Assembly (NCBI GenBank): GCA_029068555.1
Contig: JAIECJ010000011.1
Location: forward strand, 1-42,284
Direction of reading: 5' to 3'
Length of the DNA stretch: 42,284 bases
Source: Lachnospiraceae bacterium
Lineage (GTDB): Bacteria > Bacillota > Clostridia > Lachnospirales > Lachnospiraceae
In this document: positions 34,988 to 41,914 of the stretch, in pieces
Position numbering within the stretch: the stretch's first letter is position 1
How the letters are laid out: each line of letters opens with the position of its first letter
The notes under the pieces: model-generated
Told to the model about the DNA's origin: nothing
Database searches by the model: none
What the model saw: only the letters and a program-made list of their open reading frames with translations
Position numbers and translations under genes: made by a program

Positions 34988-36022
34988 TTATTTTTCCAGC
35001 GGATAGTGGCATGCTACCATATGATTATTCCCCATATCAGTCATCACAGGCACTTCCTTTTTGCACTTTTCCTGGCACATATAACATCTTGTGTGGAATT
35101 TGCAGCCTGTCGGTGGATTGACAGGGCTGGGAATATCACCCTCCAGCAGGATTCTGTCACGCTTCTTATCATTCACGTCTGTTGTAGGTATTGCTGACAA
35201 CAGTGCCTTCGTGTAGGGATGCAGTGTACGTTCAAACAACTCCTCTGTGCTCGCCAGCTCCACCAGATTTCCCAGATACATTACACCGATTCGATCGCTG
35301 ATATATTTTACCACACTCAAATCGTGTGTAATAAACAGGTATGTGAGATGTTCCTGTTCCTTTAAATCCGACAACAGATTCAAAATTTGTGACTGTATCG
35401 AAACATCCAATGCGGATACAGCTTCATCACAGACTACAAACCGCGGCTTTAACGCAAGGCTTCTCGCGATACCGATTCTCTGACGCTGACCGCCGGAAAA
35501 CTGGTGCGGATAACGTCCAAACATATAGGTATCAAGTCCGCACTTTTTCATTACATCCATGACATAATCGCGAAGTGCCGTATCACCCTTTTTATAAATG
35601 CCATGAGCTGTCAATCCCTCCCCGATAATCTGACCTGCTGTCATTTTAGGGTTCAGGGAAGAATACGGATCCTGAAAAATCAATTGCATTTCACGCCGCA
35701 ATGCGCGTAGTTTTTCGGCCGGCTGTTTTTTAAGATTGATCATCTCCCCATCTTTTTCAAAAAAAATATCACCATGTGTCTGCGGATAAAGCTGTAAAAT
35801 AGTTCTGCCAAATGTGGATTTTCCACACCCAGACTCACCTACAAGTCCTAATGTCTCTCCCTCATAAATGTCTAGGGAAATTCCATCATTTGCCTTTACA
35901 TACTTTTGTTCTTCACGAAAACTTGATTTTTTGACAGGAAAATATTGTTTGATATCGCGAATGCTAATCAATACCTTTTTATTTTCCGTTTTATTATTAC
36001 CAGTTTTATTATCAGTCTGCAT
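34988..36022 (-). CDS. oppF: Oligopeptide ABC transporter ATP-binding protein OppF
   Basis: A 344-aa ATPase subunit of a peptide importer. Walker A GLVGESGCGKST, signature FSGGQRQR, Walker B FVVCDEAVSALD (Ala where Pro is usual in DEP), H-loop ITHDLSVV. The C-terminal oligo_HPY region has the conserved Cys cluster (CKFHTRCYMCQEKC), possibly an Fe-S site as described for some OppD/DppD proteins. The ATG at 36022 after GGAGG is preferred over 36034, which overlaps that site. It overlaps the 3' end of oppD by 11 bp, so the two are translationally coupled. Confidence 0.93.
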   Translation of the reverse strand: MQTDNKTGNNKTENKKVLISIRDIKQYFPVKKSSFREEQKYVKANDGISLDIYEGETLGLVGESGCGKSTFGRTILQLYPQTHGDIFFEKDGEMINLKKQPAEKLRALRREMQLIFQDPYSSLNPKMTAGQIIGEGLTAHGIYKKGDTALRDYVMDVMKKCGLDTYMFGRYPHQFSGGQRQRIGIARSLALKPRFVVCDEAVSALDVSIQSQILNLLSDLKEQEHLTYLFITHDLSVVKYISDRIGVMYLGNLVELASTEELFERTLHPYTKALLSAIPTTDVNDKKRDRILLEGDIPSPVNPPTGCKFHTRCYMCQEKCKKEVPVMTDMGNNHMVACHYPLEK

Positions 36023-37031
36023 GATGTCCTCCATTCTGAAGGGGTGTTTCCTTCCTGACAGCCTTTTCTGCGTAGAAACATCTTACCTGATGATTTGCTT
36101 CCACTTCCAGAAGTTCTGGTTCCTCCTCCATACACTTTTTCGTACAATACTTACAGCGCGGCGCAAACTTACATCCTTTCGGCAGGTAAAGCGGGTTTGG
36201 AACTGCCCCGTCAATCGGATCCAGACGAACCCCTTTGGGCGTGTCCAGTCTTGGAATAGAAATCATCAGCCCCTCTGTATATGGATGGGAATAAACACCG
36301 TCTGTAAAAATAGTCTTTGCATCTGCCATCTCTACAACCTGCCCACAATACATAACAGCAACCTTATCTGCCATTTCATTAATTACGCCGAGATCGTGCG
36401 TGATAAATAAAATGGCCGTTCCCATCTTTTCCTTCAAATCGTTCATCAGCTTCAAAATCTGTGCCTGAATCGTAACGTCAAGCGCTGTAGTCGGCTCGTC
36501 CGCAATCAGAAGCTTTGGCTTGCATGCAAGTGCCATCGCAATCATGACACGTTGCCGCATACCACCAGAAAGCTGGAACGGGTACTGCTTTGCCACACGC
36601 TCGGGATTCGGAATTTTGACTTCCGAAAGCATATGCACCGCCTCGGCCTTTGCCTGTTTTTTCGTCATTCCCTGGTGCACACGGAACACCTCGCCTATCT
36701 GTCTCTCTATCGTAAACACCGGATTGAGCGATGTCATAGGTTCCTGAAAAATGACTGATATCTCATTTCCACGGATTGCATACATCTCCTTCTGCGAGCA
36801 GTTCACTACATCCTTGCCATTAAAGGAAATCGTTCCACTCTCAACATAACCGTTTCCATCCAAAAGCTTTAAAATGCTCATGGCAGAAACACTTTTTCCG
36901 CTGCCGCTCTCACCCACAATTCCAAGAGTCTCTCCCGGCTCCAAAGAATAGGTGACATCATTAACTGCTTTTACCACACCGCGCTTTGTCTTGAAAAAAG
37001 TACGCAGATGCTTTACTTCCAGTAAACTCAT
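36012..37031 (-). CDS. oppD: Oligopeptide ABC transporter ATP-binding protein OppD
   Basis: A 339-aa partner ATPase. Walker A GIVGESGSGKS, Q-loop VIFQEPMTSLNP, signature LSGGMRQR, Walker B LLIADEPTTALD, H-loop ITHDLGVI, and a C-terminal oligo_HPY region with cysteines CKFAPRCKYCTKKC. OppD and OppF together energise the OppBC pore. It starts eight bases after the oppC stop and overlaps oppF. Confidence 0.94.
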   Translation of the reverse strand: MSLLEVKHLRTFFKTKRGVVKAVNDVTYSLEPGETLGIVGESGSGKSVSAMSILKLLDGNGYVESGTISFNGKDVVNCSQKEMYAIRGNEISVIFQEPMTSLNPVFTIERQIGEVFRVHQGMTKKQAKAEAVHMLSEVKIPNPERVAKQYPFQLSGGMRQRVMIAMALACKPKLLIADEPTTALDVTIQAQILKLMNDLKEKMGTAILFITHDLGVINEMADKVAVMYCGQVVEMADAKTIFTDGVYSHPYTEGLMISIPRLDTPKGVRLDPIDGAVPNPLYLPKGCKFAPRCKYCTKKCMEEEPELLEVEANHQVRCFYAEKAVRKETPLQNGGHHAD

Positions 37032-37039
37032 ACAATTAC

Positions 37040-38830
37040 CTACCTTTCCTTGGACTTAGGATCTACGGCATCCCGCAGACCATCACCGATACAGTTGATA
37101 CTAATCGTACTGATTGCCAGAACGATAGACGGGAACACCCATCTCCACCAGTATTTTTCAATTACCGTAGCATTTCTGGCACTGTTTAACATATTTCCCC
37201 ATGTTGCGTTCGGCTCCGTTACGCCAAATCCAATAAAGGACAATGACGATTCTGTCAGCATACAGGTTGCGAAATCCAGTGTCGCATTCACAATAATAAC
37301 CGTTATAACATTGGGCAAAATATGGCGGAAAATAATGCCCCATTCTTTCACGCCAAGTGCCTTTGCCGCTGTAACAAACTCCTGTTCTCTCTCCGCCAGA
37401 ACACTGCCTCGCACCAGTCTTGCTATACCCGGCCATGAAAGAAATCCCAGAATAACCATGATCATGATAATTCGCTGTGTTTCTGTAATACTGTTTCCAA
37501 TAATTGCCGATAAAATGATAGCAAACGGTAAAAATGGCAAAGAAGATACAATTTCAGTCAGACGCATCATAATATTATCAATCTTTCCGCCCTTGTATCC
37601 TGACACACCACCAACAACCACTCCAATGATGGTAGAGATAATTACAGCAATTGCACCGACTGTCATTGTCATACGGCCACCCTTGAGCAATCGTCTAAAT
37701 ACATCGCGTCCGAGGTCGTCTGTCCCCATCAAATAACCATCAAGTCCCCAACTGTATACAGTATTACTCTCTCCAATTGCATAATTTCCATAGTAACCCG
37801 CACTGATTTTTTTCACCGGTTCGTTGATTGATGGAACCTGATTCTGTCCAAATGTACCATCGCCCCATGAGACAACCGATCCGTCATCAAGAAGAACCGT
37901 ATAATGATACCTTCCGCCCTCGATAACCTTTACATGTCCCTGAATTTCCTCTGGAATATTACATGTCTTTTTTATATTATTTCCCCATGCGTAAACACGT
38001 CCGTCCTCCGTGACAGCAGCAACACTCTCGTCCGACATTGCCATATCAACTGCATGTCCCGACACAGCGTCAGGAACTTTCGAGTATGCTGTAGATTTTT
38101 TCGTAAGCGGAACCACTTCCTTGGAATCTGTAAGTGCAATGACAATATCATTGTTTGCATCAAAAGATGTAATATGTCCCTGAACACCATCCGGAAATTT
38201 GATGTCTACAATGTAGCTGTTTCCCCAACTATAAAGTCTGCCCCTATCCGTGAGTGCAAGCGACATCTGATACCCCGCGTACACCTCCACAGGCTTCTCA
38301 CCCATGCGAAGCTCCACCGGAATCGCCTCTAGTCCCATACGGTCATTTCCCCATGTAATAACTTCATCATTTTCATTTATGGCAAGAATATGGTCAAGCC
38401 CTGCCGACACCTGCGTCAGCCTTCCCATATCCTTAGGGAGTTTTTTGAGCTTGTCTGTCGGAAAGTTTCCCCATTCATAGACATGTCCTTCGTTGTCTAT
38501 GCCAACGGAAAATGTACTTCCCAGACTAAGCTGTCCGGCATCTGTCGAAAGCGCTTTTGGTACTTTGAGCATACCAAAACCAGGCTCTACATTTGACTGC
38601 GTTACATCTTGATAATACATATCTATCGGAAAAAATATTGGCAGTATCATACAGCATGCAAATATAAACAAAAAGCAGAAAACACCTACCATGGCAATTT
38701 TGTCTTTAATGAAACTGAAAAATACCATTTGTATCGGAGTCAGTACTGCTTCCTGTTCTTCCGACATCATACCGCCTACAAGCATTCGCTGTGTCGCTTT
38801 TCCCATAGTGGATTTTTTATTTTTTTTCAT
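37040..38830 (-). CDS. oppC: OppC-like permease with inserted RCC1-like beta-propeller
   Basis: A 596-aa protein, almost twice a normal OppC (about 300 aa). Residues 30-70 hold the usual cytoplasmic N-terminus and first membrane helix (about 46-69). Residues about 100-363 form an insertion of roughly 40-residue repeats of the RCC1 type, each with a VxAGxxHxxAL-like strand and a WGN/WGD turn: WG at 120, 160, 202, 282, 322 and 361, with a degenerate turn near 240, giving seven blades. The permease then resumes at the canonical LMGTDDLGRDVF (368), with five further helices and the EAA loop AAKALGVKEWGIIFRHILPN (488-507). Since the loop after helix 1 is outside in this family, the propeller should sit on the extracytoplasmic side, near the binding protein (inference). 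No frameshift or stop marks the joints, so it is a true domain insertion. Confidence 0.92.
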   Translation of the reverse strand: MKKNKKSTMGKATQRMLVGGMMSEEQEAVLTPIQMVFFSFIKDKIAMVGVFCFLFIFACCMILPIFFPIDMYYQDVTQSNVEPGFGMLKVPKALSTDAGQLSLGSTFSVGIDNEGHVYEWGNFPTDKLKKLPKDMGRLTQVSAGLDHILAINENDEVITWGNDRMGLEAIPVELRMGEKPVEVYAGYQMSLALTDRGRLYSWGNSYIVDIKFPDGVQGHITSFDANNDIVIALTDSKEVVPLTKKSTAYSKVPDAVSGHAVDMAMSDESVAAVTEDGRVYAWGNNIKKTCNIPEEIQGHVKVIEGGRYHYTVLLDDGSVVSWGDGTFGQNQVPSINEPVKKISAGYYGNYAIGESNTVYSWGLDGYLMGTDDLGRDVFRRLLKGGRMTMTVGAIAVIISTIIGVVVGGVSGYKGGKIDNIMMRLTEIVSSLPFLPFAIILSAIIGNSITETQRIIMIMVILGFLSWPGIARLVRGSVLAEREQEFVTAAKALGVKEWGIIFRHILPNVITVIIVNATLDFATCMLTESSLSFIGFGVTEPNATWGNMLNSARNATVIEKYWWRWVFPSIVLAISTISINCIGDGLRDAVDPKSKER

Positions 38831-38849: not shown

Positions 38850-39833
38850 TTAGTTTTCCAGCTTCACCCTTGGATCCACAAGAGTATACGCGATATCCAT
38901 CAGAACATTTCCGGCAAGCGACAAAATAACATAAAACATCTGCATCGCAAGCACAACTGAGAAGTCTCTCTGGTTCAGCCCCGAAATCATCATCTTTCCA
39001 AGACCGTCCCATACAAATATCGTCTCAATTACAACAGATCCGCCAAACAACCCGATAAGCCACCATGTAGTCACAGTTACTACGGGTATTAATGCATTGC
39101 GGAATGCGTGCACATAAATTACCACCTTTTCACGCAGTCCTTTTGAACGTGCTGTCCTGATATAATCCATGCGGAGCGCCTCAATCATGGATGCCCTCAC
39201 ATAGCGTGTAATACTTCCTATACCACCGACAGACATGACAAGAACAGGAAGTGCCATATGCTTTGCCGTATCAACAAACGCATCAAAACCCGTTCCCGTA
39301 AAGCCTGCAGTTCTGACGCCGCTAATCGGGAAAAGAGGAATGCGTATCGCAAATATATAGATGGCAAGCAGTGCAATGACAAAGCTCGGTATACTGTATC
39401 CAACAATCGTCACAACCTGCACAACCTTATCTAACATGCTGTTCTTCTTAACCGCCGTGGTAATGCCAAGCGGTATAGAAATTGCAAACACCAGAATCAT
39501 TGAAAATATATTTAAAAGCACCGTGTTGCGCATCGGCACACCGATGACATCCTTCACAGGTCTTCTGTATTCAGTAGAATAGCCAAAATCCCCCCTAAGC
39601 ATATTGGTAATCCATTTCACATATTGCACAGGAATGGGCTTGTCAAGTCCAAGCATCTCTCTCATATTGTCATACTGCTGCTGATAAACCTCTGGCTTTA
39701 TATTGCCCTGCAGCATCATTTTCACCGGATCGCCCGGCATTGCCTTATAAATGGCAAACATTAAAATAGAAATTATAAAAAAAACAAAAATAATATAAAC
39801 CAATCTTTTTAATAAAAATCTTCCAGTCCGCAT
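38850..39833 (-). CDS. oppB: Oligopeptide ABC transporter permease OppB
   Basis: A 327-aa inner-membrane permease with six predicted helices. The start MRTGRFLLKRLVYIIFVFF and the P-loop-like PGDPVKMM segment are typical of OppB/DppB, and the EAA motif (RTARSKGLREKVVIYVHAFR) contacts the ATPases. Unlike its partner OppC it has normal length and no inserted domain. A GGGGGA site precedes the ATG. It is 122 bp after oppA, with a strong hairpin in the gap, and 19 bp before oppC. Confidence 0.94.
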   Translation of the reverse strand: MRTGRFLLKRLVYIIFVFFIISILMFAIYKAMPGDPVKMMLQGNIKPEVYQQQYDNMREMLGLDKPIPVQYVKWITNMLRGDFGYSTEYRRPVKDVIGVPMRNTVLLNIFSMILVFAISIPLGITTAVKKNSMLDKVVQVVTIVGYSIPSFVIALLAIYIFAIRIPLFPISGVRTAGFTGTGFDAFVDTAKHMALPVLVMSVGGIGSITRYVRASMIEALRMDYIRTARSKGLREKVVIYVHAFRNALIPVVTVTTWWLIGLFGGSVVIETIFVWDGLGKMMISGLNQRDFSVVLAMQMFYVILSLAGNVLMDIAYTLVDPRVKLEN

Positions 39834-39955: not shown

Positions 39956-41914
39956 CTACTCTTCTACCCATGCCTCAGTCACAGCAGTGCTCCAATCCCA
40001 GATGGATGAAGTATCCCAGTCATGAACCTTATTGGTGTAGAAATCATGGTACTCATTTGAGTAAAGAGGAACCACTGGCAGCTTCTCATTCCATGTTTTC
40101 TGGAATGTGCGCCATGCATCAAGCCATGCATCATTATCATCAAAAGGAATCGACTTTAAAGCCACTGCTGACGCTTCAAGTTCCTTATCCTTAATCCAGC
40201 TGGCGTTATAGCCGCCACCCATCCACTTATCATCACATGAATAGTAGTACCACGGTGAATGCTGCAAAGAAAAGCCTGTAGCCAGATTGTACATATTATA
40301 TATTGTCTCACCTTCATGATCCATTGCTGTCAAAAGTGTCGGGAAATCTGTTGTGGTAGTCTTCAACTCCATGCCTGCATCCTTCATTGCTTCTGGCAGC
40401 ATGGTATTAAGAAGATCTGACACTGGATTTCCCTCAGTGTTACACCACTGAATCTCAAGCGGCTTGAGTTCTCCATCCACATCTTTATAACGTGTTCCAT
40501 CGCCATCCTTATACTCGCCGCCATCCTTATTGAGCGTCCATCCGTCAGCTGCAAGAACTTCCTTTGCTTTTTCAATGTCTTTATCATATGTATTTAAGTT
40601 TTCATCAATCCAGTCCTTGGAATCAAGGTACTCCCACTGTGAAAGTCCATACTCACCATGCACTACAGTAGCATATCCGCCACTGAACTGTCTCGCAAAC
40701 TCATTTCTGTCAAGACAGTATGCAACTGCCTGACGTACACTCTGTGAATCTGTCGGGAACTGTGAGCAGTCAAAACGAATCAGACCATAGCCATAACGGA
40801 AATATGTATGCTTCTGCACGATTCCTTCGTCTACCAGATCAAGTCCGGGCTCAATACCCTCCGCGTCACCGATTTCATACAACAAATCAACAGTACCCGC
40901 CTTCAACTCATTAATCTGTGTCTCGCTCTTTACAGTCTTGATTATCAAAGTCTTGATCATCGGCTTAATTCCTGCATAATTGCCGACATAATTCTCATTT
41001 ACCTCAAATGTGCCCTGTCTGCTTGACGCATCATAGCTTACGAGTTTGTAAGGTCCACATGTCACCTGAGGATTATAACGGTATCCTGTGTCCGGATCAC
41101 CGATCGTCTTTAACAATACATCTGTTGTAAACTCACCCGTAATTGTTGCACCTTCCTCTGTGTCTTCAATATCACAATCCGGGGCAATGACAGCAATTGG
41201 TCTGGGCGTTACAGCTGCATAAGCAAGGTCATAGTGGTATGGAAGTTCTTCTGCCTTGACTGTAACAGAGAATGTCTTATCATCAATCAGATGTACACCC
41301 TTAAGAACCTTTGTGTCGCCAGCGTTAAATTCATCATATCCATCTATATATGTATATCTTGTAGCACTATAATTATCCACTCCCATCATCTCCGGTGAGG
41401 ACTCAAGCAGCATGGCAAATGCATAGTCCTTTGCAGTGATAGCTGAGTTATCGCTCCACACCAGACCATCATTTAATGTAAGTGTGAACGTCTTTGTACC
41501 ATCCTCGTTATCTGCCGCATTCAGATCTGCGACAACCATAGGATCTGTAATCCACTCTCCGTCTTTTGTTGTGATAACTGTAGTATAACCATGTAAAACA
41601 TTCTCAGTTATCTTATAGTTTGTAGCACTGCTGTTGTATGTAGGATCATAAAAATCCTGTTCCAAATCTGTTGTTGTGCCAAGTATCAGCTGTCCTTGCG
41701 GAGTTGTAGGCCGCTCGCCTGCCTGTTCGTCATCAGCTGCCTCTGTTGAAGGTTCCGCTGCATTATCCGTTCCATCTGACGCCTCTGTCTGAGCCTGCGT
41801 CTGCGGCGCCGCATCTTCGTTGTTTGTGACCGCACCATCATCATTGCTTCCGCATGCTGTCAGTGAGACAAGCATTGAAGAAGCCAAGAGTACGGACAGT
41901 AACTTTCTTTTCAT
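39956..41914 (-). CDS. oppA: Oligopeptide-binding lipoprotein (SBP family 5)
   Basis: A 652-aa extracytoplasmic solute-binding protein. The lipoprotein signal MKRKLLSVLLASSMLVSLTAC ends in lipobox LTAC with Cys 21, followed by an acidic Ser/Thr/Ala/Gln-rich tether (about 22-75). The body has SBP_bac_5 features: LNDGLVWSDNSAITAKDYAF, VRQAVAYCLDRNEFARQF and a C-terminal KLPVVPLYSNEYHDFY. It is somewhat longer than typical OppA proteins (about 540-600 aa). GGAGG precedes the ATG. First gene of the opp operon, with a long structured leader. It should capture peptides for OppBCDF; other ligands of family 5 cannot be excluded. Confidence 0.94.
   Translation of the reverse strand: MKRKLLSVLLASSMLVSLTACGSNDDGAVTNNEDAAPQTQAQTEASDGTDNAAEPSTEAADDEQAGERPTTPQGQLILGTTTDLEQDFYDPTYNSSATNYKITENVLHGYTTVITTKDGEWITDPMVVADLNAADNEDGTKTFTLTLNDGLVWSDNSAITAKDYAFAMLLESSPEMMGVDNYSATRYTYIDGYDEFNAGDTKVLKGVHLIDDKTFSVTVKAEELPYHYDLAYAAVTPRPIAVIAPDCDIEDTEEGATITGEFTTDVLLKTIGDPDTGYRYNPQVTCGPYKLVSYDASSRQGTFEVNENYVGNYAGIKPMIKTLIIKTVKSETQINELKAGTVDLLYEIGDAEGIEPGLDLVDEGIVQKHTYFRYGYGLIRFDCSQFPTDSQSVRQAVAYCLDRNEFARQFSGGYATVVHGEYGLSQWEYLDSKDWIDENLNTYDKDIEKAKEVLAADGWTLNKDGGEYKDGDGTRYKDVDGELKPLEIQWCNTEGNPVSDLLNTMLPEAMKDAGMELKTTTTDFPTLLTAMDHEGETIYNMYNLATGFSLQHSPWYYYSCDDKWMGGGYNASWIKDKELEASAVALKSIPFDDNDAWLDAWRTFQKTWNEKLPVVPLYSNEYHDFYTNKVHDWDTSSIWDWSTAVTEAWVEE

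Follow-up and report, generated by a model that had tools for sequence, protein, structure and literature searches.

The window analysed here is a stretch of 42,284 nucleotides from a Lachnospiraceae bacterium and belongs to contig C13 of a 4.14 Mb assembly in 242 contigs. On its minus strand it carries the genes oppA, oppB, oppC, oppD and oppF in this order (Table 1), with 122, 19 and 8 bases between oppA, oppB, oppC and oppD and an overlap of 23 bases between oppD and oppF. The oppC gene is a single, uninterrupted frame of 596 codons, as the first-pass annotation had described without naming the strand, and codes for an OppC permease with a built-in propeller. A 228-codon open frame on the plus strand (37050-37736), opposite the OppC core, is probably meaningless. 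PADLOC identified 0 defence families at an E-value of 0.01, which gives no support to a reading of the locus as a defence system.

Table 1. Genes of the opp operon in the window and parts of the OppC protein, with the basis of each assignment
Feature	Position	Strand	Basis
oppA, peptide-binding protein (SBP_bac_5)	39956..41914	-	frame, Pfam/NCBIfam families
oppB, permease	38850..39833	-	frame, Pfam/NCBIfam families
oppC with RCC1/BLIP-II-type propeller, 596 aa	37040..38830	-	frame, Pfam, AlphaFold2
oppD, ATPase	36012..37031	-	frame, Pfam
oppF, ATPase	34988..36034	-	frame, Pfam
Transmembrane helix 1 (TM1), residues 44-66 in model	38633..38701	-	AlphaFold2, hydrophobicity
Linker from TM1 to propeller, residues 67-97	38540..38632	-	alignment
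Seven-bladed propeller, residues 98-362, three strands per blade	37745..38539	-	Pfam, AlphaFold2, Foldseek
Blade 1, residues 98-121	38468..38539	-	AlphaFold2
Blade 2, residues 138-161	38348..38419	-	AlphaFold2
Blade 3, residues 180-203	38222..38293	-	AlphaFold2
Blade 4, residues 220-241, degenerate, without WG turn	38108..38173	-	alignment, AlphaFold2
Blade 5, residues 260-283	37982..38053	-	AlphaFold2
Blade 6, residues 300-323	37862..37933	-	AlphaFold2
Blade 7, residues 339-362, short link to TM2	37745..37816	-	AlphaFold2, alignment
Junction and conserved G-Y-x-M-G-T-D-x-x-G-R-D segment, residues 363-376	37703..37744	-	alignment
OppC permease core, TM2-TM6, residues 377-596	37043..37702	-	Pfam, AlphaFold2, hydrophobicity

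Domain composition, predicted fold and topology of the OppC protein

Two Pfam families, both above their curated cut-offs, place the protein in the OppC type: OppC_N (PF12911) at residues 31-83 (E 2.1e-8; 34.4 bits, cut-off 23.9) and BPD_transp_1 (PF00528) at residues 403-593 (E 3.1e-35; 122 bits, cut-off 26.4). Between them lie six stretches of RCC1_2 (E 1.1e-36; 124.2 bits, cut-off 22), and this match to RCC1 repeats is far beyond chance. Two other families fall under their cut-offs, namely PF25390 (WD40_RLD, RCC1-like domain) with 129.9 of 150 bits and the NCBIfam Opp4C equivalog NF045476, the best family listed, with 320.6 of 350 bits in two stretches. Apart from the window OppC, no RCC1_2 protein was found in its genome, and 14 control genomes searched in the same way yielded none.

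AlphaFold2, supplied with an alignment of 17 homologues, predicted the protein with a mean pLDDT of 81.6. Residues 98-362, where the value is near 90, were modelled as seven three-stranded blades, and a long helix starts at residue 377. In a Foldseek comparison with the PDB the first five ranks are BLIP-II chains (TMt 0.84-0.87), followed by E. coli OppC (TMt 0.73), and a profile of the propeller alone likewise has BLIP-II as its first match (E 1.5e-51). The RCC1_2 score and the predicted seven-bladed fold, which matches solved members, assign the segment to the RCC1/BLIP-II lineage of propellers. The repeats bear out the kinship with RCC1 proposed in the first-pass annotation; by fold, the modelled propeller stands nearest to BLIP-II, a secreted protein binder, and not to eukaryotic RCC1. 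The two are grouped together, with BLIP-II as a secreted binder, in the available part of a propeller survey (PMC9218822), and BLIP-II blades are described as three-stranded in the available part of a review (PMC6121496).

Pfam, AlphaFold2 and Foldseek agree with the earlier placement of the propeller between the first two helices, and a seven-bladed propeller is almost certainly built into OppC between TM1 and TM2. The WG turns previously placed at residues 120, 160, 202, 282, 322 and 361 are all present, as is the degenerate blade near 240; the motif LMGTDDLGRDVF begins at residue 367, one residue off the earlier value of 368. The core has an EAA coupling loop at about residues 484-507.

A hydrophobicity scan gave seven windows above 1.6, two of them overlapping, which were taken as six helices; the highest value inside the propeller is 0.69 and no helix window occurs there. 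In 55 of the 58 fused proteins the N-terminus carries a net positive charge; the propeller, with 22 lysines and arginines against 35 aspartates and glutamates, is acidic. If the EAA loop is placed in the cytoplasm, helix parity indicates that the TM1-TM2 loop should lie outside. E. coli DppC, solved by cryo-EM, has six transmembrane helices and a periplasmic TM1-TM2 region according to the available text (PMC12136057). From parity, charge and this homologue we infer that the propeller is probably extracytoplasmic, as the first-pass annotation had assumed.

Distribution, origin and selection

The fused OppC was found in 64 genomes with 16 family codes within the phylum Bacillota, counted over the union of taxon samples that overlap and each include the window genome. 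The design described in the first-pass annotation, which had called for a profile search for RCC1 together with BPD_transp_1, is confirmed and is not unique to the window genome. It is present in 2 of 38 genomes of the same genus and 16 of 397 of the same family. In the order, 23 of 392 genomes were matched at E 1e-30 and all 23 are fused (frames were read for 22, and the last, G642, is represented by locus L189). In the class 17 of 19 matched genomes (391 searched) and in the phylum 14 of 19 (398 searched) are fused, and the remaining matches in these two samples include RCC1 proteins without a permease core. The nearest named relative found is L001, from the MAG Lachnospiraceae bacterium UBA7205, whose fused OppC is 96% identical. 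Single-contig genomes with the fused gene include G268, G301, G381, G774 and G791. GTDB contigs were also scanned for exact peptide patterns taken from the window OppC, a method that can miss distant members. Of the 27 loci obtained, L001 alone matched over the full query length and proved on reading to be fused; several matches with long ranges are, in the frames read, plain OppC of about 300 residues, and L021 and the RCC1-only loci L023-L027 lay outside the frames read. Among 72,556 plasmid records 3297 were matched, and 0 had one place covering 80% of the query.

Variants of the repeat architecture also occur. Large RCC1-repeat proteins without a permease core are encoded at L117, L130-L132, L134 and L135 in related genomes. 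The fused OppC of L166 (2184-4814) has 876 residues, with an RCC1 region of about twice the length and, by eye, about fourteen modules. L093 (1255-3399) and its kin L090-L092 and L094 have fused OppC proteins of 692-714 residues; in L093, the one read of these, blades 2 and 3 are separated by a long loop that is acidic and rich in threonine.

Phylogenetic analysis was performed on the permease core only, with the propeller left out of the columns. The 154 frames gave 119 different cores; removal of 9 that were either near-copies at 97% or too short left 110. All 59 fused rows lie on one side of one branch with an SH-aLRT of 98, rising to 99 after the removal of six long or far rows. This single clade fits one old insertion, and on the simplest reading of the core tree the propeller apparently entered OppC once, long ago. 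The fused set came mostly from a propeller query, so members of the clade that have no propeller could be missed; no propeller-free row fell inside the clade among 30 loci from a core-only search of 116 genomes. Neither the propeller nor another large insert is present in 41 of the 110 rows. Plain OppC rows near the fused clade are L139, L142, L147 and L148, and a further neighbouring group outside it comprises ten plain rows and a six-row clade with an unrelated insert. By eye, the plain loop of L002 and L003 resembles an RCC1 hairpin, a possible seed of an insertion.

Two further types of insert occupy the same TM1-TM2 loop. The second type (L030, L031, L150-L152 and L155) adds roughly 170-260 residues; no Pfam domain was found in the insert of three tested proteins, and it is predicted to form alpha/beta repeats and no propeller (pLDDT mostly 61-88 in the insert blocks, mean 62 overall). 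The third type, of about 100 residues, belongs to an OppC clade of L006, L161, L164 and L165. As the propeller and these two inserts stand in separate OppC clades, it seems that the loop received an insert on three or more occasions, one of them being the entry of the propeller.

These inserts bear on an explanation of the propeller as a ligand-free spacer or stabilising cap, which would fill or brace the outer face of the translocator or set the height of OppA in the cell wall. Two inserts of different sequence in the same loop of other clades, one of them with a predicted non-propeller fold, suggest that bulk may outweigh fold, and in one case the fused OppC has expanded to 876 residues. The conservation of the propeller speaks against this explanation, which we regard as improbable. 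Across 58 fused proteins, a set without the 876-residue form of L144 and L166, every member has the WG-turn glycine in blades 1, 2, 3, 5, 6 and 7, and the tryptophan of these blades is retained in 80-100% by weight; the blade 4 tryptophan is missing in 17 of 17 aligned homologues. The propeller is under purifying selection: between the window and L063 its dN/dS is 0.039 at a dS of 0.75, the core having a dN/dS of 0.005 (for L064 and L065 the comparison with the window approaches or exceeds saturation). The same strong selection in the pairs tested argues against a mere spacer, as do square-root branch rates, which over all branches link the propeller significantly to OppA and OppB and not to the core or OppD.

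Selection and spread also answer the suspicion of an artefact, either a fusion by misassembly or a pseudogene with a functionless insert, for which the division of the window genome into 242 contigs might be cited. The presence of the gene in 64 genomes, several of them in a single contig, its open frame, its dN/dS of 0.04 and its single clade rule out artefact, chance and pseudogene, and we give such an origin practically no credence.

Conserved positions are further found in the linker (73-91), where N80, P83 and P91 reach a weighted conservation of 83, 97 and 98% in the 58 proteins, and in the junction (361-376). Conservation averages 0.64 for the core against 0.48 for the propeller, with the lowest value, 0.385, in the inter-blade loops. 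No strongly conserved surface patch was found in the 58 fused proteins beyond the fold residues, the linker and the blade 7 loop.

Operon partners and possible functions of the propeller

The operon context is well preserved. At 62 fused loci OppB is present in 62, OppD in 60, OppA in 59 and OppF in 59; six loci miss an Opp member. Five of these lie at contig ends; the sixth, L190, which is a second copy within its genome, shows neither OppD nor OppF in the 5.3 kb of downstream sequence retrieved. From six of the 17 loci read first, seven nearby proteins were selected by eye, and Pfam identifies each of them as a peptidase: M3 in L068, L069, L072 and L077, M24 in L070, and M20 and M29 in L074. 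With these neighbours and an OppA of the SBP_bac_5 family, peptides are the likely cargo of the fused importer. No further partner gene common to the first 17 loci was seen by eye. At L071 (12081-14033) a second OppA gene adjoins the operon's own. OppF has at least 430 residues in 42 of 59 fused operons (for example L066:9427-10995, L069:9676-11085 and L168:7833-9404), and the three OppF proteins read from before Walker A contain a long charged, helix-like insert between motifs that are presumably Walker A and the Q-loop; judged by length, OppF of the window (348 residues) and of the plain sister operon L167 (341 residues) have no such insert.

The gene codes for OppC, a permease subunit of OppABCDF, which is an ABC importer of type I for peptides. 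The propeller would stand on the outer face of the translocator, joined to TM2 by the short link after blade 7 and to TM1 by the conserved linker, and would hold OppA on the OppB/OppC gate as MalF P2 does for the maltose-binding protein. By this analogy the propeller may serve, on the extracytoplasmic side, to dock or guide OppA, one of the functions put forward in the first-pass annotation. We favour this docking role tentatively, at not quite even confidence. The domain matches, the seven-bladed model, the single clade, the low dN/dS and the Opp operon context are consistent with it, as are the hydrophobic windows that fit six helices with none in the propeller and the net positive N-terminus in 55 of 58 proteins. 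A precedent is the scoop motif after TM1 of DppB, reported to bind the DppA cleft in E. coli (PMC12136057, in part). On the other side, solved OppC and DppC proteins (287-302 residues) are too short to contain a propeller, 41 of the 110 tree rows are insert-free, and the surface of the propeller has no strongly conserved patch beyond the positions named above.

Covariation of evolutionary rates was compared in three sets. A distance test with 15 operons showed no link between propeller and OppA (partial r 0.004), but with 49 of 57 operons the partial r is 0.475-0.50, reached in 0 of 1000 permutations; in this set both proteins are fast, with a mean distance of 1.42 for OppA and 1.42 for the propeller. 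The branch-rate test used 51 of 56 operons and one fixed topology with 99 branches, which are not fully independent, and each pair was controlled for the other four proteins. The propeller-OppA pair has a partial r of 0.39 (p 1.1e-4), third of 15 pairs; the values are 0.65 for OppD-OppF, 0.49 for core-OppB, 0.30 for OppA-OppB, 0.23 for core-OppA, 0.21 for propeller-OppB, 0.11 for propeller-core and 0.05 for propeller-OppD. The counterparts of OppD-OppF, core-OppB and OppA-OppB touch in the Dpp structure, as far as the available text describes it (PMC12136057), and three touching pairs among the top four lend the ranking some credit.

Without up to 20 of the longest branches the propeller-OppA value is 0.36-0.44, and that of OppA-OppB drops to 0.20 and is not significant. 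Rank correlations for propeller-OppA are lower (0.22-0.26; Spearman over all branches 0.26) and the bootstrap interval is 0.09-0.59. Some subsets and transforms are non-significant: on terminal branches r is 0.22 (p 0.15) with square roots and a significant 0.43 with logarithms, and on inner branches 0.39 (p 0.009) and 0.28 (p 0.063), respectively. With logarithms propeller-OppB (0.33) equals propeller-OppA (0.33), and on the tips propeller-core reaches 0.34 (p 0.02), so the link of the propeller is not exclusive to OppA. Shared exposure of OppA and the propeller outside the membrane, together with their fast rates, rather than contact, could also give the covariation, and the phylogeny of the Opp operon may differ from the species tree.

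The small distance test without an OppA link would suit a different role, in which the propeller is an outward binding head for another ligand such as the cell wall, a surface or secreted peptidase, a host protein or a signal. Such a role is possible, though in our estimation doubtful. BLIP-II, to which the propeller is closest in fold, is secreted and binds proteins tightly according to the parts of the literature available (PMC6121496, PMC9218822), the inter-blade loops are variable and the propeller evolves fast, and the neighbours seen by eye in six of 17 loci are peptidases. The larger rate tests, which tie the propeller to OppA, weigh against it, as does the lack of a further partner gene common to the first 17 loci, by eye. 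Were it right, it is conceivable, with the same reserve, that the head places the importer at a source of peptides or senses that source.

A wider proposal joins these elements: a TM1-TM2 slot filled at least three times, a protein-binding propeller head that keeps OppA permanently captured and perhaps also holds a source of peptides such as a peptidase or a cell-wall protein, and hence a previously unrecognised kind of tethered type I importer spread across a bacterial phylum. We consider it rather unlikely as a whole. If the propeller does bind a protein, the permease subunit of a well-studied importer class would bring its own protein-binding domain, and substrate delivery in these bacteria would be organised unlike that of textbook Opp and Dpp systems. 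The spread over many Bacillota families would then bear on peptide uptake in the phylum, and the OppC TM1-TM2 loop is pointed to as a recurrent site of domain insertion. The OppC-propeller importer is real, widespread and, as far as searched, undescribed: in agreement with the first-pass annotation, no description of the architecture was found among the matches listed in open-licence literature, a scope in which subscription papers are mostly not included. The domain combination may already be listed in domain databases.

Compared with solved relatives (E. coli OppBCDF 8z21 and DppABCDF 8z1y, M. tuberculosis OppABCD 8j5q), the window OppC shares the OppC_N helix, six transmembrane helices, the LGTDxxGRD segment, the EAA loop and an operon with OppA, B, D and F, and is 43% identical to E. 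coli OppC (8z21_B) over the core; it differs from these proteins of 287-302 residues by 265 residues of propeller in the TM1-TM2 loop. With BLIP-II (1jtd, 3qi0), the best match in sequence and fold, it shares seven blades of three strands each and RCC1-like repeats, but BLIP-II is a free secreted beta-lactamase inhibitor whereas the window propeller is part of a membrane permease frame. MalF P2 of MalFGK2 is an extracytoplasmic domain inserted into the permease subunit of a type I importer, as the window propeller probably is too, but of a different fold and permease family and in a different loop. It contacts the binding protein MalE (PMC3150292, in part), a contact that the window propeller may make with OppA. 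The DppB scoop motif of E. coli DppABCDF is an extracytoplasmic region after TM1 that reaches the binding protein, as the window propeller may do, but it comprises about 30 residues of the B subunit, in contrast to a whole propeller in the C subunit (PMC12136057, in part). Finally, CRINKLY4/ACR4 (7a0j, 7a0k) is a membrane protein whose ectodomain has an RCC1-like propeller (PMC4617170, in part); it is a plant receptor kinase, whereas the window protein is a transporter.
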